From positions 5,452,501-5,516,500 of the forward strand of contig OZ038468.1 in assembly GCA_964036295.1 (NCBI GenBank): DNA of 64,000 nt, given 5' to 3'. Below, in pieces: positions 9,268 through 33,110 of the stretch. How positions within the stretch are numbered: position 1 is the stretch's first letter; every line of letters begins with the position of its first letter. Both the position numbers and the translations under genes were made by a program. The stretch is from Plumapathes pennacea (taxonomy: Eukaryota; Cnidaria; Anthozoa; Antipatharia; Myriopathidae). The notes under the pieces are model-generated. The model saw only the letters and a program-made list of their open reading frames with translations. It was not told the DNA's origin and did no database searches.

Positions 9268-10472
9268 TCCAGGACCGGCCAGCATTCTTTCCCATGAGAC
9301 TACGTCTGCGCATGTCAGTGACGTCAAACCAGGGTTGCGTCCCAATGTCGTACCCAGACCCTCTGGGCTCTAGACTGTCTACAATCGTTTTGGGCACAAT
9401 GGCATAATGGCAGACTGAAATCTAGGCCAAACAAGGTAAGTTCTCCACATACCGGTGTTGACCAAGACTTTCGTGACTGTAATGTATTTTTTGTAATGAT
9501 TTATGTAAAGCGGCTTCTTGTGATAAACACCAATTGTTCGGTTTCCGTGAATGTGGAAGCTGATGTAAATGGCCATTCCATTTTATATCCCCCCAATAAG
9601 GGTCTTCTAATAAGAGCCCCTTGGATATGACCCCGTATTCCCTATCAAAAGTGGCAGTTTACGTTTAGAAATAGCTTCTGTTTCGCACAGATTATAAAAC
9701 ACAATAGAAAATGCAATCGAGCGTAAGTCGCCCCTCGTGGTAGGCAGATCGCATCGAGTTGTCTATTTTACTGTTCGTTTGAGGAACTGTTCACCGAGAA
9801 TATCGTACAATTGTTATCAAAGAATCCCCTTTTTTTTTGTAGTCATACTGCTCTACACAGGAAAGCGAAGATTAGAGGAGAGAATACATCATAGAACAAC
9901 TGAGCAACCACGTGATTTGCCTTTCACGCCAATTTGCCGAGGTTATTAGCTTTCTGTGGGGATCTTTGATATTTAAGTCTTTTTGCATGTATCTTTTAGA
10001 AGATTTGAGTTGTTCCATCTCGAGTGTGTGGCTCAGTGGTGAGACGGAGTCGTTTTGTGATCAAACGCTTTTGTTTTTAGGCTTAAAAATGGCAACAAAA
10101 TTTAGACTTAACCCGGGGTTAGCTTAATCTTGCTTCGAACACCCGGGTCCAGTTGTTTTTGGGAGATTACCCATCTTCAGCCTTGTCCTGTTCGAAGGCT
10201 TACACATCTTGTGCTCCCTATCCAACCTGTTGAACATAAAGGTTACTGCCAGTAATATGGGCAACATATTCTTGCAAAACTTGTCATGTAAGTTGTACCA
10301 TAATATTTCTCTTATTACAATCATGTTGCAAGTTGCAGTGAGATGTTGCAGGAAGATGTGGTAATATGCACAATGTTATATCACACACAACAATTTATGG
10401 ATTTCAGCTGTTTTGTTAAAACTAGATTGAGAACACATTAAGTGACTGTCTAATGTTGTTTTTGCACATTCC

Positions 10473-11734: not shown

Positions 11735-11921
11735 AGTAGTATGGTGTCCGGAAAATGCCCCACTTTGCATACTAATGAGATGCCTTACCCCCACCCCCTG
11801 GGGATGGTTTTTGTCACCCTAAAAATGGGAACTAAGGGGGTGGGGGTGGGGTGAATTTTGTCACTGTAGGAGGGGAAACTGAGGGGGAGGGGAGGGTGGG
11901 GAGAAGGGTTGGCCTGAAGTA
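11735..11921 (+). repeat. Left terminal inverted repeat of the Polinton
   Basis: Matches the inverse of 43,864-43,980, including the GGAAAATGCCCCACTTTGCA block and a G-rich inner part. The left copy is about 69 bp longer because of an inserted second version of the GTCAC...GGGGG module. GGGGGAGGGGAGGGTGGGG at 11,883-11,901 is a clear G-quadruplex motif. Protein-primed replication is expected to start at these ends. Confidence 0.9.
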
Positions 11922-11925
11922 AGAT

Positions 11926-12026
11926 GAAATACAATTAAGAAAAACAATAGATATGAAATAATGTGCTTTTAATGTCAGCAAGATGAAAATACAATTAAGA
12001 AAACAATTGATATGAAATAACGTGCT
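11926..12026. repeat. Tandem duplication of about 58 bp next to the left TIR
   Basis: The module AAGATGAAA...CAATTAAGAAAA...GATATGAAATAA...GTGCTTT occurs twice in a row. It overlaps the poly(A) signal region (TTTATT on the plus strand) of the leftward Fic gene. Variation between the copies is small. Confidence 0.65.
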
Positions 12027-12784
12027 TTATTGACTGCATGTTGAAATGCATTGTTTGTAGGTTTTCAAGGCATCAAGAGCAGAACGGAGGAGTAGAGTGG
12101 TCAGGGTTTTGGGGTGACCATTGCAGCTTCGCGCGTCGACCAGAGTTTCAGTGAAGTTATCTGAGGATCCTAGGATGGAGATAGGGAAGGGAGCGTTGAT
12201 GGTATGTTGGAGAATGTGACTGGTTAGAAGTCTGGCGAGACGACCATTGCCATCGCCGAAGGGGTGAATGTCCAGGAGTTTATAGATGAACCAGGCACAG
12301 AGTTTGAAGGATTCGTAGTGTCAGGAGACCAAATTCGTGGAGATCGTTGAAGCGATCACAGAGTGTTTCCAGCTGATGTTTAATTTCTTTGGGGGATGAG
12401 TAGGTGTACTCTTCCGCCAAAGGTAGTGCTGCGTACGTATGGACTGAATTGGCTGGGGTGCTTGCTACCAAAAATGCGGGAATGCACTTCGCAGATGAAG
12501 TCAGGTGTCATCAGTGGCGGGTATACTACAAAATCGTACTGTTTGTCGGGGAAGAACTCTTGTCGAAGAAATTTATAAGCCAGTAGGAGATCTTGAAGGT
12601 CTGTGGTTTTTTCTTCTGTATCTTGGATGTGATGGAGGAAATCTGTCATTCTATCATCATGACAATTTGATTTGAGAGTTGTTTTTTCAGACATCAAAGC
12701 TTGAATTTGGTCAGCTAAGTGCTGGCCTGTGACGCCATAATCAATAGACGCTTCAAAGTTTAGCACGTCCGCCACGACTGACAT
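12027..12784 (-). pseudogene. Fic-domain protein (AMPylase-type), frame-broken
   Basis: Start ATG at 12,784; the last block ends at TAA 12,027-12,029. The third block contains HPFGDGNGRLAR (coded at about 12,231-12,268), an exact fit to the Fic active-site signature HPFx(D/E)GNGRxxR, preceded by the expected helix (WFIYKLLDI). Upstream blocks carry YSSPKEIKHQLETL and FDLHEFGL-like spacing typical of Fic proteins. Fic enzymes usually transfer AMP or another nucleotide group to Ser/Thr/Tyr of target proteins. Reading frame switches at about 12,405-12,420 and about 12,318, so the gene is broken or misassembled. The N-terminal SxxxE(G/N) inhibitory motif is not clearly present. It sits 18 nt after the FAM72-like gene on the same strand, which suggests joint expression. 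Confidence 0.8.
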
Positions 12785-12802
12785 GACGAGGGTAAAATGA
12801 AG

Positions 12803-13539
12803 TTAAACTTCGGTTTCTTTTAGTTGTCTTAGCCGTCCAACGAGAGTGGCAGAGTCGTGGCGTGCCTTTAATTGTGCTTGGATGTCACGCTTGATGTCCT
12901 CGGTTTCTTGTTCTGAATCAATATGACAGTGGTGTTGCCCATGAGTTAGAGTGGTAGAGTTGCGTCGGGTACGGGGAATGGCTATGACTGAGTCGGGGTG
13001 AAAGATCCATTGATTGCCGCTGTGCGCGGTTTCAAGACATTCCAAACAAGGCATGCGAACGTTGTAGCCTACGTAGCGGTTGCATTTTGTGCAATGGATG
13101 TTTTGAATCACACAATAGCAGTTTGGACCCCACTGCCAATCACCTGTAAGTTGCACGGAACTGAAATAAAAATAAAAATAATGTAAGTAGATGAAAACAA
13201 TGAATTGAAAAATGGTAAAATAATAACCTACTTTTTTAGAGGCATGGTAGAGGTGTAGTACCACGGCTGACAGTTATAACGATCGTGTGTGGACATGGCC
13301 CAGTGTTGATCGCGTAAACCTTTCACGCTCAAAACATGCTCGCAGGTTTTGCAGCAAATAACCACGACGGCTTCGTCTCGAAAAACTTGCCAGTCAATGC
13401 CAGCTTGAATAGGACCGTAACCCCGTCTTTTAACGAGTTTTTCTTGATTGTTCCATGCGGTTATTCGCATCCGTTTTTGTTGCCGGGTCATTGGCGGGTC
13501 TGGTATAGTCTGCCATTCATGATTATACATGTTTGCCAT
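12803..13539 (-). CDS. FAM72-like zinc-binding protein, two exons
   Basis: Spliced as complement(join(12803..13160,13232..13539)), 221 codons plus stop. The 71-nt intron has GTAGGT at its 5' end and TTTATTTTTATTTCAG at its 3' end, and removing it joins the frames exactly. The cysteine pattern is that of animal FAM72: CxxC at residues 63-66, CYC at 117-119, CxxC at 126-129 followed by YVGYNV, PCxxC at 140-144, then a conserved Trp (154) followed by FH. Mammalian FAM72A binds the nuclear uracil glycosylase UNG2 and promotes its loss, favouring error-prone repair of uracil in DNA. The protein is longer than human FAM72A (about 149 residues), with extra N-terminal and charged C-terminal parts. 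A viral role in controlling uracil repair is inference. It is transcribed from a divergent promoter with E-boxes. Confidence 0.8.
13161..13231 (-). other. 71-nt intron of the FAM72-like gene
   Basis: A canonical GT-AG intron with a pyrimidine-rich 3' end. Its length is identical to that of the intron at 41,845-41,915 in the right accessory block. In-frame stops within it support removal. Confidence 0.75.
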
Positions 13540-13711
13540 GTTGTTATTGCTTGAGTGAAAAATATTAAAAAGTGAAACAGTATTTATAATAGAAAAATGA
13601 TACGTCACCCCCACGTGGGATGCCATCACGTCGGTATCCCACGTGGGGTGACGTAAGCAAAGATAAAAATAGTTGTGTTGATTTGTTTATAAAAACAGGG
13701 AGCGGGGAAGA
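13540..13711. promoter_or_regulatory. Divergent promoter with two CACGTG palindromes
   Basis: Between the leftward FAM72-like gene and the rightward membrane protein. CACGTG cores at 13,612-13,617 and 13,640-13,645 sit in CCCACGTGGG-type palindromes. TACGTCA (13,601) and TGACGTAA (13,649) flank them. TATAAATA-type boxes face each gene: leftward near 13,583-13,590 and TTTATAAAA at about 13,686-13,695 rightward. Confidence 0.65.
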
Positions 13712-14242
13712 ATGAGTGCATACACGAAAATGAAGTCAATTGTGTTGCTCGTAGTTGCGCTGTTTCTGTATGTCTTTTTTGTTCTGAACAATGGTCAAAA
13801 GTTCAGCTCTCGCGATGCAGCATTGGCAGCATTTCAAAAGATGCAGAATACGCAGAATATGCAGAAGATGCAGAATGGTACGAAGAAAACTGTAATAACC
13901 CCGCCGCCGGGTTATGTACAGTTGCGAGTGGGTCCGAACAAAACGATTCCTGTCAAGAATGGTTCAGTCGAGTCGCTTGGAACCTTTGATTCGTTGGATG
14001 CAGCATTGTTGGTGTTTAAGAAGCTACAGAATACAACCCGGAAGCGTCGTGATACTGAATCCCAGCTACCGATTGCTGGTGAAGAGCAATTATTGCTGTC
14101 CCTTTATTGTCGCAGTAAGGTCAATACGTCCGAAACAGGCAAAAGGGAGTTTAAGGTTTGGTTAATGCGACTGTCAGAGCTGGAATGCTCCATGATTCGG
14201 GGCCAGTTTCTTCGCGCTGATTTCGATGCCATGTTGGAGTGA
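13712..14242 (+). CDS. Small membrane-anchored or secreted protein, unknown
   Basis: 176 residues. A hydrophobic segment at about residues 8-25 (SIVLLVVALFLYVFFVL) is a signal anchor or signal peptide. Two related internal segments, FSSRDAALAAFQKMQN and FDSLDAALLVFKKLQN, suggest an internal duplication. A KRRD site follows the second repeat and could be a furin-type site (guess). N-glycosylation sequons (NGT, NGS, NTT, NTS) are frequent, consistent with a luminal or extracellular body. Start chosen at the first ATG after the TATA box. No family recognised. Confidence 0.6.
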   Translation: MSAYTKMKSIVLLVVALFLYVFFVLNNGQKFSSRDAALAAFQKMQNTQNMQKMQNGTKKTVITPPPGYVQLRVGPNKTIPVKNGSVESLGTFDSLDAALLVFKKLQNTTRKRRDTESQLPIAGEEQLLLSLYCRSKVNTSETGKREFKVWLMRLSELECSMIRGQFLRADFDAMLE

Positions 14243-14254
14243 GTGATCAAGTGG

Positions 14255-14419
14255 ATGCAGTGGCGAAAAGCCGTAGAGATATTTGACAAAGGTTGGGACA
14301 AGAAAGACTGGCCGTGCTACAAGTACAAGTACAGAATGTACAAGCCCGATTGTAAGCCTTGGGATTTGTTTGATAGTGATGTACTGCGTCGTTATGACAT
14401 TCCTTGTGAGAAACTCTGA
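14255..14419 (+). CDS. Short Trp/Tyr/Lys-rich ORF
   Basis: 54 residues from ATG 14,255 to TGA 14,417-14,419, starting 12 bases after the preceding gene ends. The composition is distinctive (WDKKDWPCYKYKYRMYK) with two Trp-Asp pairs. A poly(A) signal AATAAA follows near 14,474. It could be a separate small protein on the same transcript. No family recognised. Confidence 0.4.
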   Translation: MQWRKAVEIFDKGWDKKDWPCYKYKYRMYKPDCKPWDLFDSDVLRRYDIPCEKL

Positions 14420-14484
14420 ACTTGTTGAAAAAGTGATGTTAAAAAAGTGTATTTTAAAAACACCATGTTTGAAAATAAAAGTTT

Positions 14485-14746
14485 TTATTGTTCATCTTCG
14501 AATGCAGGACGCATTTTTTTATTTACAAAGTTTTGTAGCCATCCTTTGCCACGTTGTTTATCGAATGCCTTATGAAGAAAGCGACCAAAGAAACTGTTAT
14601 CAATTTTTCTTTGCCGTTCTGTTTCCCGCCTTTTTTGCTGCCTTGCTAACTCTTTCCCATCTCCATTTATATCCACCACTCTGTTTCTTTTGCTTTTTCT
14701 TCTTTTTCATACGTCTTCTAGCAATGCCACCTCGTCGACACACCAT
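14485..14746 (-). pseudogene. Small highly basic protein, frame switch in an A run
   Basis: ATG at 14,746 opens a frame with VCRRGGIARRRMKKKK. After the Lys/A-rich run (about 14,690) the long open frame down to 14,485 continues in another phase (RRETERQRKI, then FFGRFLHKAFDK). An RGG motif near the N-terminus recalls other small virion-like proteins of this element. It is likely a nucleic-acid-binding or virion core protein by composition only. It ends convergently against the rightward gene pair at 14,419. Confidence 0.45.
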
Positions 14747-14771
14747 GTTTTTAAAAAGTGAAAAATGTTGT

Positions 14772-15086
14772 TTATTCTTTTGCTTTTATAACAACACCAC
14801 CAAATGCACAGCGTACATCGTGTTCAGCTTCGCGGTACAGTGTGGTCATTTCTTGTTGTTGTTCTTCGCTTGTCATATGATAAAATATCAGTTCTTGCAT
14901 GCGTGGGGAGTAAGTCTTGATAAGTTCCCGCCGCCGGTCTTCAATAAAGCCTTGTTTGCTTTGTGGAGTGAGATAATTCCAACTGTGGGAATATTTGGGG
15001 CGATGTGTGGCCATGTAGTCTTGAAATTGTTGGTGACGGTCTGCAATGTTTTGACGCGCTATTTTCATTTCTTGTCTAAAATTCAT
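14772..15086 (-). CDS. Unknown 104-residue protein
   Basis: Begins MNFRQEMKIARQNIADRHQQ. It is charged and mostly helical, with aromatic-rich SHSWNYLTPQ in the middle. No hydrophobic segment and no cysteine cluster. It lies in a leftward series of small genes (15,884 to 14,485) driven from the promoter at 15,885-16,169 or from local promoters. No family recognised. Confidence 0.5.
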   Translation of the reverse strand: MNFRQEMKIARQNIADRHQQFQDYMATHRPKYSHSWNYLTPQSKQGFIEDRRRELIKTYSPRMQELIFYHMTSEEQQQEMTTLYREAEHDVRCAFGGVVIKAKE

Positions 15087-15095
15087 TGTTTTAAC

Positions 15096-15200
15096 TTACC
15101 CGACCATGACGCTTTCTACTTGATAGTTGTATTCAGCGTTGTATTCAGCGTATTCTGCTATGTAGGTATCGCAGCGGTTGCATTTAAGAAAATACAACAT
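15096..15200 (-). CDS. Possible 34-residue ORF with Glu-Tyr repeats
   Basis: ATG 15,200 to TAA 15,096. Starts with a CxxC (KCNRC) and contains AEYAEYNAEYN, an eight-base-type tandem repeat in the DNA. The stop overlaps a GTAAGT sequence that looks like a splice donor, so this may instead be an exon. Weak support. Confidence 0.25.
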   Translation of the reverse strand: MLYFLKCNRCDTYIAEYAEYNAEYNYQVESVMVG

Positions 15201-15251
15201 GCTCGCCGAAAGATAAATGTCGAATGAGAATAAAAGTAAAAATGTTTTTAT

Positions 15252-15884
15252 TTATGATTTCTTTACAAATGTAGTTACATACAGAGTGGTAGTGGTGGTG
15301 GTCAAGTTCAGTTCTTCCAGTGTTTCTTTGAACAAGGTTTCTTCTAGCTGTTTCCACCGCTGTTCGATGAGATAGGCGTTTGGGTCGCTAGCACCTTTCA
15401 TCTTGGCCAGTTCTTTTCGTTCCACATTCGCCCACTTGGTTTTCATTCGTGTGTAGATTTCATGCCAATGAGGGTAGTCAATGGCGCCACACACTAATTC
15501 TTTGGTCCAAGCTCGAGCCGAGGCGGTACGAAAGTCTGGGCAACATTCCGTTTCTTCGCTGCTTTGCTCGTTGTGCATCACGTACTTGGCAATGGCGTTG
15601 AAGAGGACGAAGCTGCGTTGGCTGGCGGTCTGTAATAAGCTTTTTTGGGGAACAAAGTCGAGAGCGACGATCGCTTCTTCTAAGAGAGTTCGTTCAAACT
15701 CTTTTTGTTGCGCTTCGTTTTGTTCTTGCTCACGCTCTTCTTGGTCTCTTTCTGTGTATCGGTTGTGATATTGTTCGTTCATCCAGTCATAGATTTTTTT
15801 CCAATCTTCATCACAGGGCTTGTAACGAATGAAAGAGTTTTGAGTGTATTTCGGAAATACACAGCGAGGTTTGGAGTTAGCCAT
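15252..15884 (-). CDS. Unknown 210-residue protein, early-type promoter
   Basis: Start chosen at ATG 15,884 (MANSKPRCVF), nearest to the TATATAAA box at about 15,950. The N-terminal half holds a Glu/Gln-rich coiled-coil stretch (RDQEEREQEQNEAQQKEFE). The C-terminal half has IDYPHWHEIYTRMKTKWAN. It is divergent with the large gene starting at 16,170. It ends with a Thr-rich tail. No family recognised. Confidence 0.55.
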   Translation of the reverse strand: MANSKPRCVFPKYTQNSFIRYKPCDEDWKKIYDWMNEQYHNRYTERDQEEREQEQNEAQQKEFERTLLEEAIVALDFVPQKSLLQTASQRSFVLFNAIAKYVMHNEQSSEETECCPDFRTASARAWTKELVCGAIDYPHWHEIYTRMKTKWANVERKELAKMKGASDPNAYLIEQRWKQLEETLFKETLEELNLTTTTTTLYVTTFVKKS

Positions 15885-16169
15885 AGTGATGAAAGCAATG
15901 GAAAGAGAAAACATTGACGGCGCAATGTGGAAAAAGTAGAAAAACGTGATTTATATATAGGGTTTTTTCCGCTAAAAATAGCTTGCACCACGTGGGATGA
16001 TGTATATAGGTTTTTTCCCGATAAAAATAGGTTGTTGTTGACATTAACCCCACGTGGGATGATGCATGTGCTACTATGTGACGTCATCCCACGTGGGGTG
16101 ATAAAAATAAAAAACATGCTGACGAATCCTCTAGAAAATATGTTAAAAGCGTGACGATATAAAAGAAAA
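15885..16169. promoter_or_regulatory. Divergent promoter with three CACGTG sites and a CRE
   Basis: CACGTG at 15,989-15,994, 16,051-16,056 and 16,090-16,095, each in a (C)CCACGTGGGATGA-like context. A perfect TGACGTCA lies at 16,079-16,086. Two similar TATATAGGTTTTTTCC modules (about 15,953 and 16,003) are a short tandem duplication. The TATA box for the rightward gene is GATATAAAAG at about 16,155. Confidence 0.7.
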
Positions 16170-19159
16170 ATGTTATTCAGTGACATGGCTCAGGCGATGC
16201 TGGATGCGAGTGATTTTATTCCTTTGAATAAAACACCGCGTAAACGAAAATTGCCAGATGGGCCGGCGGCGAAAAAGTCAACAAAGAAAGCAGCGGGAAA
16301 GAAGAAAAAGGTGGAGAAGAAGACATCCGGCGCTGCCGGAGCCAGTGATGGCCCCCCTCTTGGAAAAGTTATACCGATTGACATGCTCGTCTACGAAAAG
16401 AGAAGCGCCCCCTGGTACGACAACTGGCCCTGGGTCTACAAGTCGAAAGGAAAGCGTATGCATGCAGTGACTGGTGATCTGATTGAGGCGTCCAAAGGTG
16501 TGTTTACAGATCCCTACGAGGGAATTATTTTTACAAGCACATCATGGTTCGACGATCCATGCAAATATATACCATGGTACAACGTGGCGCCTTCGTGGTT
16601 AAAAGGACCTCAGGAAAACTACCGAAGAAACAATCATACCCTGAAGATCAGTATTCTAGCCCCCTTTGGCCCCAGTCCGCCTCTAGGTGTGGGATATTAT
16701 GAAAACGAAATGAAGAAGCGTGCAGCGGCTTGGCTGAAAGTACCCCCCAGTGACCCCGATCTACGGCAAAGTCCTCAGTGGTACAATGAAGAACCGTACC
16801 ACTCTGGTTTGTCTTCGAACTCGCGAATCACCACAATCTCTTTCAACAGCTTGTGATACCGTTCGCAGGGATGCAAAGTGCGCCAGAATGATATAGGTCC
16901 CGTCTCTGAATACCGGAGTGGCTTTCCGTTCTCGACCATTGGTCCTGCAAGTAGCATAACCCCCATAATGCGATGGGAGCGGTACGTGTTGAACGGGAAA
17001 ACGTGTCAGCCTCCAGAATTACGCGATCATCCTTGCGATGATCCTTATCCTTATCCAGCCTTAGTGCCCGAGTCAGAAGCGGAGGCGGCATTACCGTGGT
17101 ACGACAAATATCCGTGGATGAAGATTGCCTGTGTTGATCCTCGCACGCCCGATTTGACGCATGACCCGTTTCGTCGCGCGAATGTGCTCAACGGACAAGA
17201 AGTGTTTCCCCCGAATTGAATGCACCTGGCGAAGGCGATTGGTACGTGTCGTTGGCCAAAATTAAAGAGCGGGAGAAGGAGATGCCTAAACTGAGAAAAA
17301 AGAAGAATAAGAAAGTGGAGCCCATGAAAGGGATAGGTTTTCGGGTGCTAACTGAAAAGGAGATTCATGTGAAGCGCAAGAAATGGATGCGTAGTGAGAA
17401 AGATCAAGAAAGGATCCAGTACGAAGACATCAACGGAACGCGCAAACTGTATGTGAACATTGCGTGTCCTGATGGTGAGCCAGGATGTGAAGCTCTGCAT
17501 AGCCGTGCTGCCACCCCCGAGGAAACCGCCCAGTGGAAATCACAATTCAGCGGCGTGTTTGGTGATTATAAGAATATTCCAAAAGAGTTTTTGGAAATGA
17601 TTCTCAAAGGGTCCGATGACAAGGGCGTCTACTATTGCACGTTTACGAAGAAGTATTTTCGAAAAATGGCCACGGCTGCATATCGGCTGTTCTATCCTAT
17701 TGATCTTCAAGAACTGGTGATGAAAAGAGATTTCTTGTCCAGTATCGAAGACAAGGAGATACAAGAGAAGACACGCGAGATGATCATAACGTCCCCCTAC
17801 GCTATCTACTATGGTGAATATTCAGATCTGAGTATGGATCTGCTGGAGGAAATCACCTTTACGGGTACCGTGGACGAGTACAATGTGTACAGTTCAAGTA
17901 GCCAGGCAACCCTCTTTTCCATGTCGAGAGGTTTTCAGGAGTTAGCACGTCGGTCTCTCCTTACCTACGAAAGCGTCGAGGAAGCCGTGGCAGCGCTGGA
18001 AGCCATTCCGCCACCCCCTCCCCCATCATCACCAGAAAAAAGAACGGGTCTCGATGTCGTGGAAGACGTGTGTGCCATTCCAGAAGAGATCTTGAATGCG
18101 ACAGATACGACTAAGGAGATCAACGAGCGGGTAGCAGAAGAAGAGGATTAGCAGAATGGTCTAGAAGGCATCAATCAATACTGGGGACAGATTGAGCTAG
18201 AGAAGACAAAACAGCAAGTGGAGACTAGCAAGAAATGGTGTCAAAACATCCGAAAGGAGATTGAAGCGATGGAAAAGAATCTAAGAAATTACAAGATGTG
18301 GAAAGACAAAACTGTGGAGGAATTGAAGGAGGGGTACCATGAACTGGATTACAAGAAAGAGCAGTTGGAGATCTTTTTGAATGATGGAAAGCCTGTGGTG
18401 AAATTGCCTGAAAAAGACATCATCGCCCAAATGGCTACCGAGGACTACGAGGAATGGAAAAAAGAAAAGAAGGAAAAACCCAGCAAGGCCTATGAAGAAT
18501 GGCGTGGGGGGTGAGACGAGGCTGCGAAGAATTCACTAGAGTTGAGTGAGAGTCGGGATCGCCGTCGCACATTGCGCCAGCAAATAATTCGGAGTCGCGC
18601 CATTCCACCCTTGATGCATTGCTTTTGGGGAATTATCGTGGAAGAAATGCGAGCAACTATTGTTCGTTTTTGTCGCAGTGCCTGTTTGGGTTGTCGTTCT
18701 TCTTCCTGGAGGTTGCATGACGCATGCACTCGGTCTATGCGTTCTGTCTGGAGCGAGCATGCGTTTCAGATTTTGAATGAACTGAATCTGGCCAGTATGG
18801 AGATGATGTGGAATGGAGTGATGGAACAGCACAATCTCGATGCTGACACGACCGAGAGCATTTTAACCATTGCACCCCCAGCGGATTTGATTCACATGTG
18901 GCAGCGGGAAACACGTTGTGACCCACCCCCCGTCACTTTGGCAGCCATGTATGATGTGATTGCACGGCAAGTGCCTGACCCTCCCCCTGAAGGTTCTGCG
19001 CTACTTCAGGATTTCCCTACCACATGTGGCGCTTCAAGGGAACTGTTTCATCAACTGAATCGCCGCGTGGATGTGTTCATGTCTGACTATAAAGTGTCTG
19101 ACGTTTTTTGATGAGCATTTGGGTGATGTGGTGAAAGAGTTGTCAGAAAAGAGTCAGTA
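16170..19159 (+). pseudogene. Very large unknown protein gene with repeated WY motifs, several stops
   Basis: Open blocks 16,170-16,856, 16,878-17,219, 17,216-18,151, 18,218-18,514 and 18,542-19,111 form one gene of roughly 990 codons. The first two blocks share a frame across TGA 16,854. The last three share a frame across TAG 18,149 and TGA 18,512. The frame switches at a C run near 17,212 and again at a T run near 19,108. The N-terminus is strongly basic (nuclear-signal-like, residues about 20-50). A motif of the form PWYDxxPW recurs (APWYDNWPW, IPWYNVAPSW, SPQWYNEEPY, LPWYDKYPW), and a VLNG...PPE motif recurs twice. The C-terminal part has coiled coils and then PPPPPP. No homologue recognised. 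Expression from the E-box promoter suggests a non-structural role, but a virion role is possible. Confidence 0.5.
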
Positions 19160-19193
19160 AAGAGTCATTATTTTTTGTAAAACGATGTTTTTA

Positions 19194-19643
19194 TTACAAA
19201 ATGTAAACTCGCCGTTTGCGAGGATCTTTATTAAAAGATACATAATGGATTCCTTTGCCTATCTGTGGTCGTTTGCTTTGGGTTCTTTGAGCGACTGGGG
19301 TGAGGGGGAGAGGGGGGATATGGCTTCGGGGTTTGCGTGTGGCTGCTGGGGTGCTGGGAGAGGGTTTTTTGGGCGGGGCTGTGGCCATGACCACGCGGGG
19401 TTGAGCGGCGGCGGCCGGTTGCTGTTCCTGATGCTCTTGGAATTTTTTCAGTTCATGCATAAAGGTGTCCCGTTTTTGAGATGGTGAAGCGGCCGGATTG
19501 TCCAGGATAGCCTGGAGACGTTTGCCTGTGGCTTGAGCATTGTAGTGGCGTTGATCAGGGGTCATGCTCATGGGAGCGCTCCATTCGGGAGTGTCATAAC
19601 GTTTTCTTTTTTGGGAAGAGGGGATCACAATGGTTTCGGTCAT
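19194..19643 (-). CDS. Pro/Gln/basic-rich protein, possibly virion-associated
   Basis: 149 residues, first ATG 19,643. Low complexity: a QPAAAAQPRVV stretch, Pro/Thr-rich middle, Arg/Lys-rich end (KDPRKRRVYIL). It is the last gene of the leftward structural series and converges with the large rightward gene at 19,159. It overlaps the end of the next gene upstream by almost nothing (stop 19,647, start 19,643). Composition fits an internal virion or DNA-binding protein; the function is not shown. Confidence 0.5.
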   Translation of the reverse strand: MTETIVIPSSQKRKRYDTPEWSAPMSMTPDQRHYNAQATGKRLQAILDNPAASPSQKRDTFMHELKKFQEHQEQQPAAAAQPRVVMATAPPKKPSPSTPAATRKPRSHIPPLPLTPVAQRTQSKRPQIGKGIHYVSFNKDPRKRRVYIL

Positions 19644-19646
19644 TTT

Positions 19647-19994
19647 TTAAAAGGCGTGTTTGACTACTTTTCGAATACCCCAACGCAAGACCACGTGTAA
19701 CGGAAATCCTCCTGTTTGTTTATTGCCTCGGAAGAGAGACTGGAGTCGACAGCGCTGCGTTTTGTGGTCACAGGCAGTTTTCCAGGGCATGTCCCAATAT
19801 TTGTCGTTTCACACCTTTTATGAGTTTGGGGGTAGGGGAAGGGTGCCCATTTTGATGTTTTGCAGGACTTCCTGGGCGGCACGCAACTGTTGCGGACCAG
19901 CGCGTATTAAGAGGCTGGGGTCGTGTTCAAGGTTGCATAAAAAATGCTTGTGTTTTCGCATGAGAGGGGTGGGGCCACGCCGCGGGCTCGCCAT
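19647..19994 (-). pseudogene. Small conserved-type Polinton protein, frame-broken
   Basis: ATG 19,994 (MASPRRGPTPLM) opens about 45 codons containing LLIRAGPQQLRAAQEVL and MGTLPLP. A second short segment continues in another frame (LIKGVKRQILGHALENC). The last segment, ending at 19,647, contains TGGFPLHVVLRWG. This order (Leu-rich helix with an ARPxQ-like motif, LP/LTP, basic helix, GGF plus hydrophobic tail) is what I know from a small protein widely present in animal Polintons. Its function is unknown, and the assignment rests on pattern only. Confidence 0.45.
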
Positions 19995-20027
19995 GATTGA
20001 TGTTTTTAGAAAAGAGGGCTTGGTATT

Positions 20028-20762
20028 TTATAGAGTTAAGGACGGGGAAAAGAGTCGGGTGGGGCGATGCTGTTCACTGGGAATTAAGTTGATGCGAAGG
20101 CGGCAGTCGTCATCGGTGTCCATGGCGAAATCAATTGTAAAGTTCGAGTAAGGTTTGCGATGGGTGGTGCGTCGAATCCAATTCATGATTTCACGTACTT
20201 GTTCTGCGGTGTAACTGCTGTGTAAAAATCGTCGGATGACGTCCATGTTGCGAAGTTCAATGATGAAAATAGCTACAGACACATTGCGAGCTATGTCTAC
20301 ATTGTGTTTTCCTTGGTGATAGGGGTTTTGGGAAGTCATAATGGTAGTTACACCCTGATGATGTGATTTTTCTACGAATATGCGTTGAATGGTATCGTCA
20401 TTGACGGCTGACCCCATTTGATCGTCTAGGACCAGAATGCACACTTCGTTCTTGGGCGTCTTTTGGGGGAAGTCTTCTTCAATGGATTCGGGGAGTCCCT
20501 CTTTGAATTCCACGCCCATTTTTTTCAAGTAATCATAGGCGGGTTGCCAAGAACCGTAGCGGAACACAATTTTGGTGACAGGCCATTGGAAAAACTCTTT
20601 TCTCCGTTTAAAAATCTCTGTAATGAGAGTGGTCTTACCACTGTTGGAAGGTCCAGAAACGAGAATGCGCGCCGGGTGTTTGAAACGCAAGTCGAGTTCA
20701 TGTGCATGTTTTTTGATGGTCTTGGGATAGGTCAACTGTGACGTTGCGCGTCGTTTAGGCAT
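20028..20762 (-). CDS. Genome-packaging ATPase (FtsK/HerA, A32-like)
   Basis: 244 residues, intact. The Walker A motif is GPSNSGKT at residues 37-44, the Walker B motif is VCILVLDDQ at about 107-115, and a downstream TSQN motif serves as the sensor. This is the arrangement of A32-like packaging ATPases of Polintons, virophages and large DNA viruses. The enzyme is expected to pump the element's DNA into preformed capsids. It lies next to the protease and capsid genes, the conserved Polinton morphogenesis cluster. The N-terminus is basic. This is one of the few core genes here without a visible break. Confidence 0.92.
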   Translation of the reverse strand: MPKRRATSQLTYPKTIKKHAHELDLRFKHPARILVSGPSNSGKTTLITEIFKRRKEFFQWPVTKIVFRYGSWQPAYDYLKKMGVEFKEGLPESIEEDFPQKTPKNEVCILVLDDQMGSAVNDDTIQRIFVEKSHHQGVTTIMTSQNPYHQGKHNVDIARNVSVAIFIIELRNMDVIRRFLHSSYTAEQVREIMNWIRRTTHRKPYSNFTIDFAMDTDDDCRLRINLIPSEQHRPTRLFSPSLTL

Positions 20763-20795
20763 GACACTGGGAATGAAAAGAAAAAATGAACATTT

Positions 20796-21356
20796 TTATT
20801 TATGCATTTTGTAGGTACAGGTTTGTACTTTGGCTAAACTAATATCAGAAATAACATCCTGGGGGTCTAAATCGGTGCTGGCCAAGTGAGCCATGTGGCG
20901 GTCGTTTTGGACGAATGCGAGAGGTTTCAGATAGGGTAGAGATTGAAAATCATAGCGTCCTTTGAGACCGCGTTCGGCAGCCACCACGATGCAGTAATAA
21001 CCGCACGCATTGCTCATGCCCTGGTATTGAATTTGATTTTGATGCGAAGTGGAAAAATGTTTTTGGAAACGATTGAACCAGGGGTTGCGATACTGTTGGA
21101 GATCTTGTCCGTAACTGTCAAAGATGTGCAATTGACAGGGGTCGTCCGCTCCCATGAGAATCCAATGTTCCCCCGACTTGGACGCCGGATGAGTATTGAC
21201 CACGAGCAGCCAGGGTCGAAAATGTCCGTGTGCGTCTAGGGGGAAAGGGGATGGGAGTTCATCACAGGCAAACACACCTCGAAACAGGTGTTGTGTGAGA
21301 GGGTGCTGGGATAAGAGTTGATTGATTTGATCGGTCCAGAGGGCAGTCACATTCAT
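20796..21356 (-). CDS. Adenain-type maturation cysteine protease
   Basis: 186 residues, intact. The catalytic set is visible: His64 in GEHW, Asp80 in IFDSYG, Gln112 in YQG and Cys118 in NACGYY, the order seen in adenovirus and Polinton maturation proteases (C5/C48-like). It is expected to process capsid and core proteins during assembly. GG-containing motifs in neighbouring virion proteins are candidate sites. Start at 21,356. It ends 33 bases before the ATPase start. Confidence 0.9.
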   Translation of the reverse strand: MNVTALWTDQINQLLSQHPLTQHLFRGVFACDELPSPFPLDAHGHFRPWLLVVNTHPASKSGEHWILMGADDPCQLHIFDSYGQDLQQYRNPWFNRFQKHFSTSHQNQIQYQGMSNACGYYCIVVAAERGLKGRYDFQSLPYLKPLAFVQNDRHMAHLASTDLDPQDVISDISLAKVQTCTYKMHK

Positions 21357-21362
21357 GTTTTT

Positions 21363-22826
21363 TCACACACGGTTTTGGAATTCCACGGAGCCCAACATGT
21401 CCAGTTTCAGTAAAGCAGTGTCAAAGAAAAGAAGCAAAGCTTTGAGTTTCTTTTGGGCACCTGCTCCGTTTGGACCGTCAAAGTAGAGTGTGAATGACTG
21501 CGTGCCGTGGGGTTGTTTATAGATTTGCGGGTCTGCTGGGCTCTCAGCGGGGGTGAAGTTGAAGATGATGAAATGGTATTTTTGGTCAAATGTTTCTTGA
21601 GGCATGTAAATACCATCTCCAGTGTTTTCATACATTTTCATGAATCTGCGATAGGGTTCCGCTGGGTTTTCTTTCAAGTCAATCACGTCATAGCCACCAT
21701 CTCCATTGGTTTCCACTTTTACCAGATTGTGTTTTCCAAACGTGTAGGGGTTTTCTTTCCGCCCGTTGCCACCTTCTGGATCGTCTGTAGCGGTGTCGGG
21801 TTTTTCATAATTGACTTGGGGCTGGAGCATCAGCACAACGTAATTGGGCATCACTCCCACCCTGGCGTTGGGGATGTGATACTTTTTCACACCATTTGTG
21901 ATGTTGTAGTCTTTCAGTTCCGATCGTGTGATCACTTAGGCGGCTTTGCGGCCGCCTGGGTGGGTCAGTTCTTTTTCAAGGGGGGCTACGTGGGCTGGGT
22001 TCATGATGGCTTTATGTAATTCAATGAAGATTTTCTCATCGTCATTGATAGGCACTAGTTTGCCTTGCCATGCTTTGGCGGTCATCAGGGGCCAGTTGTT
22101 GTTGTGAAAGTGGATTTTCAGGTCTATTTCCACATTGGGTGGAAGGAATTCAATGCGGGCCAGTTCGGGAATCTGCTTGAAAGGAATGACGAAATCACTT
22201 GATCCCAAATATCGGGTTTTGTTTTTACCAGTACCACCCGTTTTGGTCATCCACTGTTCCCAGCGATATTTAAATACTAATGTGCCATCATTTACACTGG
22301 TACCATCTGCCACACTGTCATTTGTATCCATGTCTAGGAATGGAGTGTAGCCCTGTTGCCGCCCCCAACTCTTTTTGTCTGCTTCGCTCATGTAAAACCA
22401 GGCGTACCACCATTCTTTGTAGCCAAAATCCTTGGGAGTTGGAGTTCCGAGTGATTTTCCATTCAATTTTATTTCCATGTGCGAAATGGAGGAAGGAGCA
22501 GTATTTTGAACTGCTCCAATGAGATGAGTGGTCCAATCCTCGTCGATTTTCTTTCCATCTGCTGACACCAAGCCCAATCGTAGTCTCAGAGAAGAGCGTT
22601 GCAAATTAATGCAATGTGCTCTTTTCAAACGAAAATGGAGGGGCTTCAAGGAATCATTGAGAGGGTACACTTCTTCCCTTTCAAAAGCGTACAAGGTGTC
22701 ATTGATGGGGGGAGGACTGAACAAATTGAGTCCGGGATTCATGAGTGTAGTGGTAACAGGTGTAGCCGAGACTGCTTTTCGGCGAGATGGGGCTCGCTTG
22801 CGACCTCCTCCACGCTGTTTAGGCAT
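21363..22826 (-). pseudogene. Major capsid protein (double jelly-roll) with in-frame TAA
   Basis: Start MPKQRGGGRK at 22,826. 296 codons are followed by TAA (21,936-21,938) and then 190 more open codons in the same frame. The second part has no ATG at its start, so it is the C-terminal half of one gene. N-terminal features fit Polinton capsid proteins: VYPLNDSLKPLHF, a VQN...HMEIKLNG strand pair, and a YKEWWYAWFYM helix followed by FLDMD. The second half contains NPYTFGKHNL and a Pro/Gly-rich strand pattern, the second jelly roll. Without readthrough the capsid subunit would be truncated. A TATAAATAG box lies at 22,853-22,861, about 30 bases upstream of the start. Confidence 0.8.
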
Positions 22827-22869
22827 GATTAACAAATGAGGGTGACAGCATTCTATTTATACATTTTTC

Positions 22870-23645
22870 TTACAACCAGATATTATTTGTTTTGTATCCC
22901 TTTTTCATCTGTTTTTTCATTGTTGCCATTTTTGCATAGTCTCTGGCTGTTAGCTTCTTTCCCTTCCCGCGCTGTTTTTTTCCTTCCAGAAAGTCGCGGG
23001 CCCTGGTTTTATTCCCCATCACACTGCCTAAATAGCCTTTTCCTTTTTGCCAATTTCCGAAGAAGGGGGGTGGTCGTCTGTAATTGACACCTTTTTGTTT
23101 TTTGGCGCGTTTCCTTTTCCGACCTCTGCCTGTTTGCATCCAAGAAGGACCCTCTTTTTTAATAGCGGTGGCGGTTTCTGGTACAGGGGTGCCTGCTGTT
23201 GTACTTGTAGGTACAGTGCCTAGTGCAAGTGTTGGTAAAGCGGGGGCAGCAGCAGCAGCAGGTGTAGGAGCTGTCATCATGGGTAAAGAGGGGGCTGCTT
23301 GGGGGGCGGCTGGGACACTGGGGACCATTCTGGGTGTTGCTGGTATAGCTGTTGCAGCTGTTTTGCGGGCAGCTGGTAACGTGGGCGGGGTTGCGGCTGG
23401 GGTGAATTTGGGTTGGACGGCTTGTTCAATGGGCGTGGTCGTGGAAGGTGATGGAGTTGCATCCTCGGATAAACTTTTTAAATCTTTTGCTAAGCGACCA
23501 CTGGACACATATTGTTTGGCTTGTTTTTCAAGTTGTCCAGCGGCTTTGGCGGCAGTTCCTGCCAGATCTCTCCAAAATCCATCCCGCGCTGTTGGGGGTA
23601 GGCTGAGGCCCCATAATTGTGACGGTACTTGAACATGTATCGCAT
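22870..23645 (-). pseudogene. Putative minor virion protein, Ala/Pro-rich with basic C-terminus
   Basis: ATG 23,645 (MRYMFKYRHN) starts a frame that switches after about 25 codons at a run of T (about 23,575). The main open part then runs to 22,870. After an Ala-rich amphipathic stretch (GTAAKAAGQLEKQAKQ) comes a long Pro/Ala/Thr-rich linker and a Lys/Arg-rich C-terminus (GRGRKRKRAKKQK). The design resembles internal adenovirus-like proteins (amphipathic helix plus DNA-binding tail), but homology is not shown. A TATAAATAAGAG box lies at 23,682-23,693. Confidence 0.5.
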
Positions 23646-23684
23646 GATGATGGTAAAATGGTAAAAATAAGGAACGTGTACCTC

Positions 23685-24140
23685 TTATTTATAGGCAGAT
23701 TTATGTCTCTTTCTTCTCTTTCCACTCAATTTGTAAAGGTTATTAAAATTGGATCCGGCTAAAAAGCCACCACCCCACAAGTCCGCTATGGGTTTGGCCT
23801 TCCAGGACCGGACGTGCCAGGTGCTTCCATGATATTTCTTTCTCTTTCTTCCCGATGTCACTGCTGATCCTAATTCTGACGCATTACTGGCTAAACCTGC
23901 AGCGAAACCAGCAGGACCTGCAGAAGTGCTCATGAGTAATTTTGCTGCTACAGCGCTTCTTTGCTTTTTCCGCGATTGAGTGTAGTCAAGCCCGCATTGA
24001 CGTCGTTGTTCTTCCGAGTCTGGACCCAGACTGGGAATGACTAGGGAACCTGCTTGTTGAAACCATCTTTCCACATCACTCATACCACCACGTTGAGCGC
24101 GTTTGCGCTGCTTGCACTTGCGTGGTTGTCCTTTAGCCAT
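23685..24140 (-). CDS. Small basic virion-like protein with QRGG motif
   Basis: 151 residues from ATG 24,140 (MAKGQPRKCK). It has the N-terminal motif AQRGGM and a central Ala/Gly-rich hydrophobic segment (LLMSTSAGPAGFAAGLA), and the C-terminus is Arg/Lys-rich (LSGKRRKRHK). It is one of three small basic proteins here that share an (R/K)xQRGG-like sequence near the N-terminus, a possible maturation-protease site. A TATAAATAAAAG box lies about 35-45 bases upstream (24,176-24,187). Confidence 0.55.
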   Translation of the reverse strand: MAKGQPRKCKQRKRAQRGGMSDVERWFQQAGSLVIPSLGPDSEEQRRQCGLDYTQSRKKQRSAVAAKLLMSTSAGPAGFAAGLASNASELGSAVTSGRKRKKYHGSTWHVRSWKAKPIADLWGGGFLAGSNFNNLYKLSGKRRKRHKSAYK

Positions 24141-24180
24141 CTTTTTGAACAAGTCTTTTCTATTTTGTCTTTTCTTTTAT

Positions 24181-24360
24181 TTATATCCTTGGCAATCCCA
24201 TGGCTGACAGTATCGCTTTACGTACTTTCACATTAGCACTTTGTGCTTTTAACATACCTTTAACACATCGAATAGGGAATTTTTTACAGACAGAGGCAGC
24301 TATGAATGGATTGCCACCACGCTATCGACGCTTTCAACGGCGTTGTTTACGTTTACACAT
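24181..24360 (-). pseudogene. Small basic protein with two in-frame stops
   Basis: ATG 24,360 followed by CKRKQRR, then TGA and TAG within 5 codons, then an open run RGGNPFIAASVCKK to TAA 24,181. The RGG near the N-terminus and the size match the two neighbouring small basic genes. The stops make this copy non-coding as assembled. It is listed because its reading frame is otherwise open to a poly(A)/TATA-type junction. Confidence 0.4.
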
Positions 24361-24361
24361 G

Positions 24362-24619
24362 TTACAAGCTGTTCAAGTATTTGGTTAGCGGGGTGTTGTC
24401 AACAACGCCTTTAAAGGCTTGTTTGGCCAATAGACGACCTGCTGTGGCAAAGGTGGGGCTTGGTCCACTTAAAAACATGGACATGACTTCGGCCACATCA
24501 TCAATTTTTTGGCGTTTGTACTTACGAACAGCACCCCCTCTCTGTTTACGACGGACAAGTCGTTTTTTGCAATGTTGTCGACGCTGCTTTTGTTTACGCA
24601 TAATGACCAGTATTTTCAT
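24362..24619 (-). CDS. Small basic virion-like protein with QRGG motif (second)
   Basis: 85 residues from ATG 24,619 (MKILVIMRKQ). Very basic first half (KKRLVRRKQRGGAVRKYKRQK), then an amphipathic region (VAEVMSMFLSG) and a hydrophobic end. It is packed tightly between its neighbours: its stop lies next to the start of the 24,181-24,360 ORF. Probably a DNA-associated virion protein, by composition and context only. Confidence 0.5.
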   Translation of the reverse strand: MKILVIMRKQKQRRQHCKKRLVRRKQRGGAVRKYKRQKIDDVAEVMSMFLSGPSPTFATAGRLLAKQAFKGVVDNTPLTKYLNSL

Positions 24620-24641
24620 TCGTTTCTCTCTTATTTGTTTT

Positions 24642-24866
24642 TTACTGCATAATGATTTGGGGGCGGCGACCGCGTGATACACGCACACGGGTTCTGCGTT
24701 TGCGACCTCCTCCATCGTGTTTGCGTTTTTCTTGGACAGGGTAGGGACGAATGGTACCAGAGCCCACTTGACGGCGTCTCTTTTTTCCCAACACCCTTGT
24801 GGAACGTGTTTGAGGGTAGAGGGGTACGCCTTGCAGACGGTTGTACTTTGAACTGATTTCTACCAT
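24642..24866 (-). CDS. Arg-rich protamine/core-like protein
   Basis: 74 residues from ATG 24,866 (MVEISSKYNR). The second half is dominated by Arg/Lys and Gly (KKRRRQ, HDGGGRKRRTRVRVSRGRR). Such composition fits a DNA-condensing core protein of the virion. An in-frame upstream ATG is possible but would overlap the TATAAATAAGAG box at 24,902-24,913. Confidence 0.5.
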   Translation of the reverse strand: MVEISSKYNRLQGVPLYPQTRSTRVLGKKRRRQVGSGTIRPYPVQEKRKHDGGGRKRRTRVRVSRGRRPQIIMQ

Positions 24867-24904
24867 GGTGCTTTTGTTTGCTAATGTATTAAGGGGTGAC
24901 ACTC

Positions 24905-25973
24905 TTATTTATAGATATTTTTTCGTCGGATGTGTAATGTCATGAAAGTGGTGGCAGTGTCGCTGGGGGTAAATTCCAGTGGATGCCCGTCTTCATCTTT
25001 GAACCAAATGTGAAAGTGATGGAAGGTACCCGCTCTAATGGGGACATAATGAGGGTGATAGACCACGTATTCGTGGGCCGGCTTGTCGGGGTTGAGAGGT
25101 GGTAAGACATCCATGAAGAGGAGAGGTTCTTTTTTACCATTCACATTACTGTTATGAATGAGATCAGAATAAACGCAGATTTGGTGACGGACCACATTAT
25201 TTTGATTTTCATAATATTCCAAACTATGGCGTCGAATGATGGGATCAATAGGGTTAGCACTGGTGGAGTGGCCGTTCTTGGTTAGGGGCAGGAATTGGTC
25301 CAGAGGCTGAAACAGTCCGCCGGGGGGAGAAGTGATACCCAGACTGGTTTCCTTTTCTTTGGTCAAATATTGGAATTCCCCATAAGATAAATGAATGTAA
25401 TAGCCCGACAATTCAGGGGCACGTATACCCACACCTAGAAGCTAAAAACGGGTTGACAAACAGAATGAATTGATTCGACATATCGTGAAGAATGCAATAA
25501 TGTGCAAAATCTTGATGATTGTGTGCTTTCGACGATAAGCGTAGAAATCGTGGTCTAAAATCACCACAAGCATTTGTGGTAATTTTAACAATCATATCTA
25601 CCACATCGTCGGCCACCTCATACTCTCCTGAAGGTAAGGTAAACAGTACCACTTTTCGATTCCCTAACCATTTTCCATGTGGTTCTGCTTTGACTTCAAT
25701 GGCCAAAGTGTCTAGACGAGATGGTATAGGTCGATTGCTCACAGGAGGGCGCCGCATCAGCAGCCATTGTGCTTTGCGTGAGTCCAAGGCGCCAAGCGTT
25801 GATATTTTTTTGTGAGGTATAAACGAGTTGGGAATCGTCAGGGATTTGAGAGCCACTTCTGCATCCTCGGAAAAAGTAACACTGTGGGGAAAGGGTGCAA
25901 TAAAATTCCCGGGCGTGTTGGTGAAGGACAGCGCGTGTGCCACATTGCTGGCTAAAAAGAGGACATCAAACAT
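24905..25973 (-). pseudogene. Polinton structural-type protein, paralogue C, frame-broken
   Basis: First block 25,973-25,413 begins MFDVLFLASN and contains the family opening NTPGNFIAPFPHSVTF. Second block 25,432-24,905 contains the family ending HPHYVPIRAGTFHHFHIWF, GHPLEF and LHIRRK. This N- and C-terminal pattern is common in a Polinton protein family of about 350-450 residues that I know as conserved but functionally unassigned, probably a virion component. The two halves overlap by 20 bases in different frames near 25,435. It is one of three tandem relatives (with 25,999-27,213 and 27,255-28,351). A TATAAATAAA box is present at about 26,010-26,020. Confidence 0.6.
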
Positions 25974-25998
25974 GCTGAGAAAAAATGAATTTTTTTAT

Positions 25999-27213
25999 TT
26001 ACGCATGTTTATTTATACTTTTTCGAAAATGTAATTGTACACGGCTGACACCTGTGTCTCCCAAGGTTAATGGTTGGCCGTGATCATCTTCCCACCACAC
26101 TGTAAGAGTCTGCCGTATTTCAGGTTTCATAGCTTTATAGGATACGTTCATTTCTTCCCAATGTTGTATAGGCGCCTCTGGTACTAATCCGGGATTCTTA
26201 ACCACAGCCAATAAAGAATCCTCAGCATTATTGACTATTTGCGATCGAATAAAATCACCATGCAAATAAAAACACTGTCCAACTCGCTGTGCCTCGCGCG
26301 GCCCCCAGAGTTCACTAGTCGGCCAGTCTGGTGGTTGATGGTCAGGATGAAAATCATCGACTATTTCTCCAAATGTCTCGTTCAAATTGGCGGCAAAGGG
26401 GTCAAAAAGTAAGGGGCCAGCGTGAAAATGGTCCAGCGGGTCCATGTTAAAAATGTAGGGTGGTCGGGATGCCACATCCCCCAATAGTCCACCCCCAGCC
26501 CGCCATGTAGCCTTGAACGTGCCACAAAGGCGTTCGTGATGGGTCGAAAATGACCATGCGCCCCTTTAGGGTCTACGTGGCGCGCCCACGGATCCCAAAA
26601 CCATGTTCCCCCATAAAAATAATTAATGGGATCGCGAGAGGCAAATCGTAGGCAGCGTTCCAAGTTGCGGTTGATCTGGATAACAATTGTCTGATCGGGA
26701 GTGGTTTCTTCGATATGACCCAATCCAGGTACATAAGCTTTCTTGAACATTAAGCTAGGTTTTTGATGAGGAAGGTCCTCGTAGACGTCATTGATTTGTC
26801 GAATTATTTGTTCTGCCACATCCTCGCCTGTGAAGTAAAGTCCCGGCTTCAGTGACATGACTAAAAGATGTCCTAGGGGTCGCGCCTTTTTGATCCAATC
26901 ATCAGCAGGGTGAGTAATCCATCTGGCATAAGACCCCAGTTTCATTTTCTCCCACTCGGGAAATTGTTGAAACCCGTGAACAGCTTTTCGAAGTTTGCTT
27001 ATCGTACTCTCCCGCATCCATACCCATGCGTGTGACTACCCATGTCATGGGTCTTTGAGGTTGAAACCAGGTGGTTGGCAAGCTTAATTCTTGGACACCA
27101 GCTTCCCATCCTGTGAAATCCGCCGGTTTGGGCAGTTGATTAGTAAATTTTTGGGGAGTGTTTATCCCTGCATATCGAGCATTACTGAGCAACTCAACGA
27201 TGGGAGTCACCAT
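25999..27213 (-). pseudogene. Polinton structural-type protein, paralogue B, two frame switches
   Basis: ATG 27,213 (MVTPIVELLS). The first block has NTPQKFTNQLPKPADFTG and WEAGVQELSLPTTWF, the clearest form of the family opening. The frame changes near 27,010 into the middle block and near 26,480 into the last block, which ends with a family-type TLTVWWEDDHGQPLTLG and LHFRKS. Trp-rich middle (YFYGGTWFWDPWARH). Upstream box TATAAAAGG near 27,252-27,262. Presumed virion component; exact role unknown. Confidence 0.6.
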
Positions 27214-27254
27214 GTTTTTAATGATGTGTTCCTTTTTTCTTTTTTGGTTTCCTT

Positions 27255-33005: not shown

Positions 33006-33110
33006 GATGTTTTGGTTAATTGTTTATAAAATTAACTGTAATGGCTCTATCAAGAGAACCATACAATAAGGACTAGTTGACAATGTCATCACAGTTACAG
33101 TTAGTTACAG

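Follow-up and report, generated by a model that had tools for sequence, protein, structure and literature searches.

A FAM72-derived gene in an apparently decayed Polinton, possibly encoding a decoy of the FAM72-CTLH pathway

In the window, a 64,000-nucleotide stretch of Plumapathes pennacea DNA, a gene derived from FAM72 lies within an element that is taken to be a Polinton and that looks decayed. We tentatively favor the reading, at rather less than an even chance, that this gene was captured as genomic DNA and remade, and that its protein would be a decoy of the FAM72-CTLH pathway and not a UNG2-degrading adaptor.

FAM72A has been studied as a switch that lowers UNG2 and turns uracil lesions into mutations in B cells and tumors. 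Excerpts of two papers describe FAM72A as the receptor that links UNG2 to Muskelin (MKLN1) of the CTLH ligase (PMC12223117, PMC13061415). In an excerpt of another paper, the FAM72A C-terminus docks into the Muskelin kelch repeats and the yippee-like core is also important for binding (PMC12871134). Sections of a modeling paper name W125 and F104 as important for UNG2 and model the FWMF strand as a UNG2 contact (PMC8616359). Human FAM72B-D bind MKLN1 but only FAM72A binds UNG2 robustly, according to an excerpt of PMC12223117, which suggests that UNG2 binding is easily lost. Contrary to this, parts of PMC11377751 report that UNG is also bound avidly by FAM72B; the same parts report that FAM72 paralogues bind one another. 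The fold relative YPEL5 binds WDR26-CTLH, blocks a substrate and is a CTLH inhibitor (PMC12687426, in part).

The FAM72-derived gene

The FAM72-derived gene consists of two exons separated by a 71-nt intron (Table 1). The spliced frame encodes 221 amino acids and is intact from the ATG at 13539 to the TAA at 12803-12805 on the minus strand. A sequence-only reading had placed a FAM72-like gene at 12803..13539, and its coordinates and strand are as described. Exon 1 carries an N-terminal extension of 50 aa and the first zinc knuckle. Exon 2 carries six of the eight zinc cysteines, the W154-I-F-H motif and a predicted C-terminal helix at approximately residues 186-220. The spacing is C63-x2-C66, C117-x-C119, C126-x2-C129 followed by YVGY, and PC141-x2-C144 followed by W154-I-F-H. 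The cysteine spacing of FAM72 and the Trp followed by FH, both of which the sequence-only reading had claimed, are thus present.

The spliced protein matches PF14976 (FAM72, listed as YPEH2ZP) over residues 52-189 with 74.9 bits (E 9.5e-21). The curated Pfam cut-off for this family is 27 bits, and the HMM check that had been proposed for the spliced protein therefore places it in the FAM72 family. On an HMM built from 31 cellular FAM72 sequences, the protein scores 74.9 bits, versus 11.0 bits or less for 2000 residue-shuffled versions. Unspliced exon 2 by itself scores 57.3 bits on our own FAM72 HMM, so the FAM72 assignment is independent of the splice. A DNA pattern of the FAM72 Cys/VGY/PCxxC arrangement has one match in the window, at this gene, and none in 100 shuffles. 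The match to the Yippee-Mis18 family PF03226 is weak and below the cut-off (14.4 bits). A Yippee/YPEL identity is ruled out by the two scores, 14.4 versus 74.9 bits.

The Polinton protein is 17-30% identical to the aligned cellular FAM72 rows. Three named cnidarian FAM72 proteins share 51-61% identity with coelacanth FAM72, and on this comparison, with 17-30% for the Polinton copy against all aligned FAM72, a recent host pseudogene is rejected.

The Polinton carrying the gene

The element that contains the gene is taken as a Polinton because it has terminal inverted repeats, a target duplication, an rve-family integrase and a PolB piece (Table 1). The defining genes of Polinton/Maverick elements follow an excerpt of PMC6431247. 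The FAM72-derived gene lies between the terminal repeats, in company with the integrase, the PolB piece and the target duplication, and the proposal that it is carried by a Polinton is supported. The target duplication GACTAC(G) is present on both sides of the Polinton and once in the empty site. A 2.4-kb direct repeat flanks the Polinton (9298-11705 and 43981-46383; 97.4%). This repeat may be a tandem duplication, or the assembler may have placed two alleles end to end. The left copy has no insertion, so the empty site is demonstrated alike under both of these readings.

Table 1. Coordinates of the Polinton, the FAM72-derived gene and other features of the window.
Feature	Position	Strand	Details
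Polinton (includes LINE)	11735..43980		TIRs, target duplication, rve integrase, PolB pieces; 32 kb; taken as a Polinton
Left terminal inverted repeat	11736..11920	+	11736-11787 pairs with 43929-43980 (98%); 11855-11920 pairs with 43864-43929 (97%)
Right terminal inverted repeat	43864..43980	-	97-98% identity to left arm
Sequence of empty target site	9272..9310	+	Start of left copy of the 2.4-kb direct repeat
Fic-domain gene, apparently in pieces	12027..12802	-	PF02661 E 5.7e-9 for 12030-12320
FAM72-derived gene, exon 2	12803..13160	-	Last base of codon 103, residues 104-221, stop
FAM72-derived gene, 71-nt GT-AG intron (predicted)	13161..13231	-	Phase 2, in AA|T codon of N103
FAM72-derived gene, exon 1	13232..13539	-	Residues 1-102 and two bases of codon 103
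Inverted repeat with two CCACGTGG boxes (13611, 13639)	13604..13652		17 matching bases per arm, one bulged base
P-loop ATPase, candidate A32-like packaging ATPase	20028..20795	-	PF04665 16.6 bits, cut-off 22.8
Adenain-like cysteine protease candidate	20796..21362	-	PF00770 14.9 bits, cut-off 21.3
Candidate double jelly-roll major capsid ORFs	21363-21935, 21936-22856	-	No Pfam match above cut-off
Seven small ORFs, mostly overlapping or adjoining	24905-28363	-	126-217 aa; no Pfam match above cut-off
rve-family integrase	28430..29521	-	PF00665 E 1.1e-13
LINE-type retrotransposon beside polymerase gene	30088-33023, perhaps to 33953	-	RVT_1 E 3.4e-37, endonuclease E 1.4e-8
Family B DNA polymerase pieces, different frames	34249..35567	-	PF03175 E 8.3e-13 for 34833-35567

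The polymerase region spans several frames, and a single piece is above the Pfam cut-off. This piece matches PF03175, the type B family of organellar and viral polymerases, and 34249-34971 matches PF00136 with 11.4 bits, below the cut-off. At the candidate packaging ATPase, other P-loop families are likewise below their cut-offs. PDB sequence searches with the protease-like ORF and with the capsid-like ORF at 21363-21935 give no match. The two capsid-like ORFs are in one frame with a single TAA between them, and they are possibly one interrupted major capsid gene. The seven small ORFs are possibly virion-surface genes, which is a guess. In the Pfam matches of the 40 window translations scanned, there is no dUTPase or uracil glycosylase family.

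The Fic-domain gene contains an HPFGDGNGR motif. It lies on the same strand as FAM72, and its first ATG (12784) is 18 bp 3' of the FAM72 stop. Neither of the two upstream pieces matches Fic, and their membership and differing frames were judged by eye; the gene looks broken in this Polinton copy. The copy as a whole looks decayed and dead, because the polymerase occupies multiple frames, a LINE lies alongside it, the Fic gene is apparently in pieces and a TAA separates the capsid-like ORFs, while the FAM72 frame stays open.

Intron position and capture

The intron (13231-13161) has the ends GTAGGT...TATTTCAG and is 80% A+T. In total, 48 GT-AG pairs of 41-399 nt give one open frame. When these are ranked on the FAM72 HMM, the 71-nt splice is best (74.9 bits), followed by splices of 104 nt (73.2 bits) and 101 nt (72.7 bits). 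The 71-nt GT-AG intron of the sequence-only reading is therefore found as described. The 104-nt and 101-nt splices are identical to the 71-nt intron in acceptor, exon 2 start and phase and differ in their donors. Since the three best-scoring splices share one acceptor, this site is firm, and the donor is likely, within a splice that is itself predicted.

The Polinton intron cuts the N103 codon as AA|T, directly before S-V-Q-L. The vertebrate intron positions with which it is compared derive from protein isoforms and models, not from gene sequences. In 12 of the 186 retrieved proteins, all vertebrate FAM72 isoforms, exon 2 is skipped exactly between codon 51 and codon 78, and the codon after STDIPPx is joined straight to GNxVGYH. 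Alternative first exons of vertebrate FAM72 join just before A/T-V-D-F/L, and the residue that precedes the join varies freely. Two proteins that are fish-like by sequence (P0172 and P0185) read into the intron and continue with Arg-Trp. The isoform joins and the Arg-Trp read-throughs are all consistent with an intron in phase 2 of the aligned codon. The Polinton intron thus fits the inferred vertebrate FAM72 intron 1, at the exon 1/2 junction, in both site and phase (phase 2). A second vertebrate intron, placed in the same way in the C77 codon, is absent from the Polinton gene.

Because the Polinton intron appears to match vertebrate intron 1 in site and phase, the comparison favors the capture of an animal FAM72 gene as genomic DNA over a cDNA route. 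The earlier suggestion that the intron points to capture from a host gene gains support from the same position and phase. The gene was likely taken from a host long ago.

Sequence boxes in the gene gaps

The window contains 10 CCACGTGG boxes, all inside the Polinton and none outside it. The number expected inside the Polinton from dinucleotide frequencies is 0.26. The boxes at 13611 and 13639 sit in a 172-bp divergent gap between the FAM72 ATG (13539, minus strand) and the ATG of the next gene (13712, plus strand). A similar inverted pair is present at 16050 and 16089, and a third box lies at 15988 (span 15988-16096). The remaining boxes are at 39686 and 39760, at 42608 and 42745, and at 38450, the last of these within an ORF. 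The boxes mark four gene gaps (13611-13646, 15988-16096, 39686-39767 and 42608-42752). CACGTG is a bHLH-type E-box. In this Polinton, the CCACGTGG box is a candidate for a shared promoter element. Because the boxes are common to the FAM72 promoter and the other gaps, the FAM72-derived gene would share a cis element in the manner of an integrated accessory gene.

Residues kept and lost relative to cellular FAM72

The zinc cysteines (CxxC, CxC, CxxC and PCxxC), which are invariant in a 14-row FAM72 alignment, are all present in the Polinton protein (8/8). The Polinton strand QWIF aligns with human FWMF (101-104), and its W and F are kept. The tail Trp (human W125) is absent. There is no Trp after W154, and in the HMM alignment the Polinton protein has THG around the tail Trp position. 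The C-terminal Arg is also absent, and the protein terminates in KETEV.

FAM72 proteins were retrieved from fungi, a sponge, cnidarians, a priapulid, hemichordates and vertebrates. Among the non-vertebrate proteins, 34 of 35 contain the NGHFWM motif. The tail Trp is present in 31 of these 34 and the terminal Arg in 30. The exceptions are P0155, P0159 and P0162, which stop without the tail, and P0149, which has the Trp and ends in His. The vertebrate or unassigned proteins contain the motif in 121 of 151 cases; within the 121, L/V/F-x-W is present in 102 and the terminal Arg in 89. Those vertebrate or unassigned proteins missing tail features that were inspected are alternative-exon isoforms or odd models. 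In a full-length alignment of 29 rows, which we chose after the 34-protein count and which leaves out P0149, P0155, P0159 and P0162, the eight cysteines, the Trp at the W125 position and the C-terminal Arg are each present in all 29 rows. Long N-terminal extensions occur in some cellular FAM72 proteins too.

In the FAM72 proteins of sponge, cnidarians, hemichordates and fungi (P0130, P0133, P0135, P0136, P0143 and others), the tail Trp and the C-terminal Arg are mostly kept. The contacts made by these two residues may be older than animals.

Predicted structure

The AlphaFold2 model of exon 2 alone consists of a core half, with strands and a short helix, followed by a C-terminal helix of 35 residues. 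It is a half domain with a pTM of 0.42, and the block pLDDT of the C-terminal helix is 77-80. In this exon 2 model, the predicted helix replaces the region of the lost tail Trp and C-terminal Arg. When the model is compared with the PDB, the first six chains listed are Mis18 Yippee-domain chains, with a best E of 0.12 and none at E 0.001. The best PDB sequence matches of the Polinton protein are Mis18 (E 0.03-0.04), and no FAM72 chain is found in PDB sequence searches with the Polinton protein or human FAM72A. The model of a cellular FAM72, from Actinia, matches Mis18, YPEL5 and cereblon structures. In the Actinia model, the tail Trp falls in the ordered portion, and the pLDDT is below 50 for the final 14 residues.

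Relatives and phylogenetic placement

A search of 5.8 billion proteins with the Polinton protein, by a method that needs shared exact words, gives 38 candidates, none at E 0.001. In IMG/VR, the Polinton protein gives two stretches, neither confirmed, and the 14-row FAM72 alignment gives 18 stretches, of which comparison with the Polinton row confirms none. The FAM72 cysteine pattern has no matches in IMG/VR. A looser FAM72 pattern matches at least 120 stretches there; none of the 120 listed has a FAM72 HMM match at E 10, and the window does. The integrase, ATPase-like, PolB and capsid-like pieces of the Polinton likewise give no confirmed relative in IMG/VR, so the absence of FAM72 from that collection says little. 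IMG/VR may lack this Polinton lineage. No second FAM72-bearing Polinton is found in the protein search or IMG/VR, and the gene is known from one copy.

In the placement tree, the Polinton end branch has a length of 10 changes per column. It is saturated, and the position of the gene is uninformative. A split with 99/98 support leaves the Polinton gene with the animals, a placement that long branches can produce. A full-text literature search finds no paper that joins FAM72 with Polinton, nor Polinton with Yippee. Among the matches listed, none joins FAM72 with a Maverick, an endogenous viral element or a transposable element.

Discussion

The Polinton protein resembles FAM72 (PF14976, YPEH2ZP; human FAM72A-D) in its profile match over residues 52-189, its eight zinc cysteines, VGY and W-x-F, and the intron of its gene lies where the vertebrate exon 1/2 junction is inferred. 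It differs in its identity of 17-30%, in the loss of the tail Trp and C-terminal Arg, in its 50-aa N-terminal extension and predicted helical C-terminus, and in being encoded by a mobile element. On these sequence features, the protein is filed as FAM72-derived and not as a FAM72A-type adaptor. YPEL5/Yippee, Mis18 (PF03226) and the CULT domain of cereblon are of the same fold class according to excerpts of the literature and the cellular FAM72 model. However, the FAM72 profile is far better for the Polinton protein than PF03226 (74.9 bits versus a weak, sub-cut-off 14.4 bits). The element resembles other Polinton/Maverick elements (polintoviruses) in its rve integrase, PolB, inverted terminal repeats, target duplication and sub-threshold ATPase-like and protease-like genes, but it differs in that FAM72 and a Fic-domain gene lie next to its left terminus.

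In the favored reading, an animal FAM72 gene would have been captured as genomic DNA, with its intron in place, and then remade in the Polinton. It would be expressed alongside the other Polinton genes from divergent promoters. The CULT/Yippee-fold core would still engage FAM72 partners, which may be FAM72 itself, Muskelin, or UNG via the retained W-x-F strand. Without the tail contacts, the UNG2-FAM72-Muskelin bridge would not be completed, and a core that meets the partners but cannot complete the bridge would be a decoy. YPEL5, with the same fold, would be a precedent through its binding to WDR26-CTLH and its block of a substrate. The turnover of pathway clients, UNG2 included, would be altered during viral DNA replication in cells that harbor a live relative of this Polinton.

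The sequence-only reading had proposed that the protein acts on UNG2 as FAM72A does. Plain UNG2 antagonism is not favored, because W125 is named for the UNG2 contact, the C-terminus docks on Muskelin, and both features are lost. A working viral UNG antagonist, in which the zinc core binds UNG and either blocks it or delivers it to the ligase, so that uracil in the DNA of the element or host goes unrepaired, is accordingly judged unlikely. The cysteine core is conserved, the W and F of the strand modeled as the UNG2 contact in sections of PMC8616359 are kept (FWMF to QWIF), and the yippee-like domain itself adds to Muskelin binding in an excerpt of PMC12871134, all of which speak for such an antagonist. 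However, the tail Trp and C-terminal Arg, kept in 31/34 and 30/34 non-vertebrate FAM72 proteins, are missing, and the lack of dUTPase and uracil glycosylase among the Pfam matches of the 40 translations gives no sign of a uracil-centered program. The Polinton protein may yet function as an adaptor, since the human FAM72A core itself contacts Muskelin in that same excerpt (PMC12871134). A re-aimed substrate receptor, in which the CULT/Yippee core docks on CTLH and another host protein is brought in for degradation by the new N-terminal extension and C-terminal helix, is also on the unlikely side. The 50-aa extension and the predicted 35-residue helix (pLDDT 77-80, pTM 0.42, exon 2 alone) would suit this role, as would a fold that FAM72A, YPEL5 and cereblon have in common, all of which work with ubiquitin ligases in the excerpted literature. 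Yet the C-terminal Arg linked to Muskelin docking is gone, and the long N-terminal extensions of some cellular FAM72 proteins weaken the argument from the extension.

That the gene is a dead passenger, a role-less piece of a host gene in a fossil Polinton, appears distinctly unlikely. The multi-frame polymerase pieces, the adjacent LINE, the apparently fragmented Fic gene and the stop in the capsid-like frame are what such a fossil would contain, and neither the protein search nor IMG/VR gives a second FAM72-bearing Polinton. Against it, the gene has promoter boxes in common with other Polinton gaps, and the open FAM72 frame, the canonical splice sites and the retention of 8/8 zinc cysteines at only 17-30% identity suggest that the gene has long been under constraint in a lineage distinct from that of the host gene.

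We put at close to an even chance the broader proposal that a lineage of animal polintoviruses has captured a FAM72 that then lost its contacts with UNG2 and Muskelin; this FAM72 would be a decoy or a re-aimed CTLH receptor and the first FAM72 in any virus-like element. The Polinton FAM72 would be a natural separation-of-function variant. That a virus-like element took FAM72 and lost two tail features kept by nearly all sampled cellular copies would suggest that there is something to gain from attacking the FAM72-CTLH axis. The presence of the tail Trp and C-terminal Arg in both fungi and animals suggests that their contacts predate antibody-making animals. If the proposal is true, the element would have made a CTLH decoy or a re-aimed receptor from the host's own mutagenic-repair switch.
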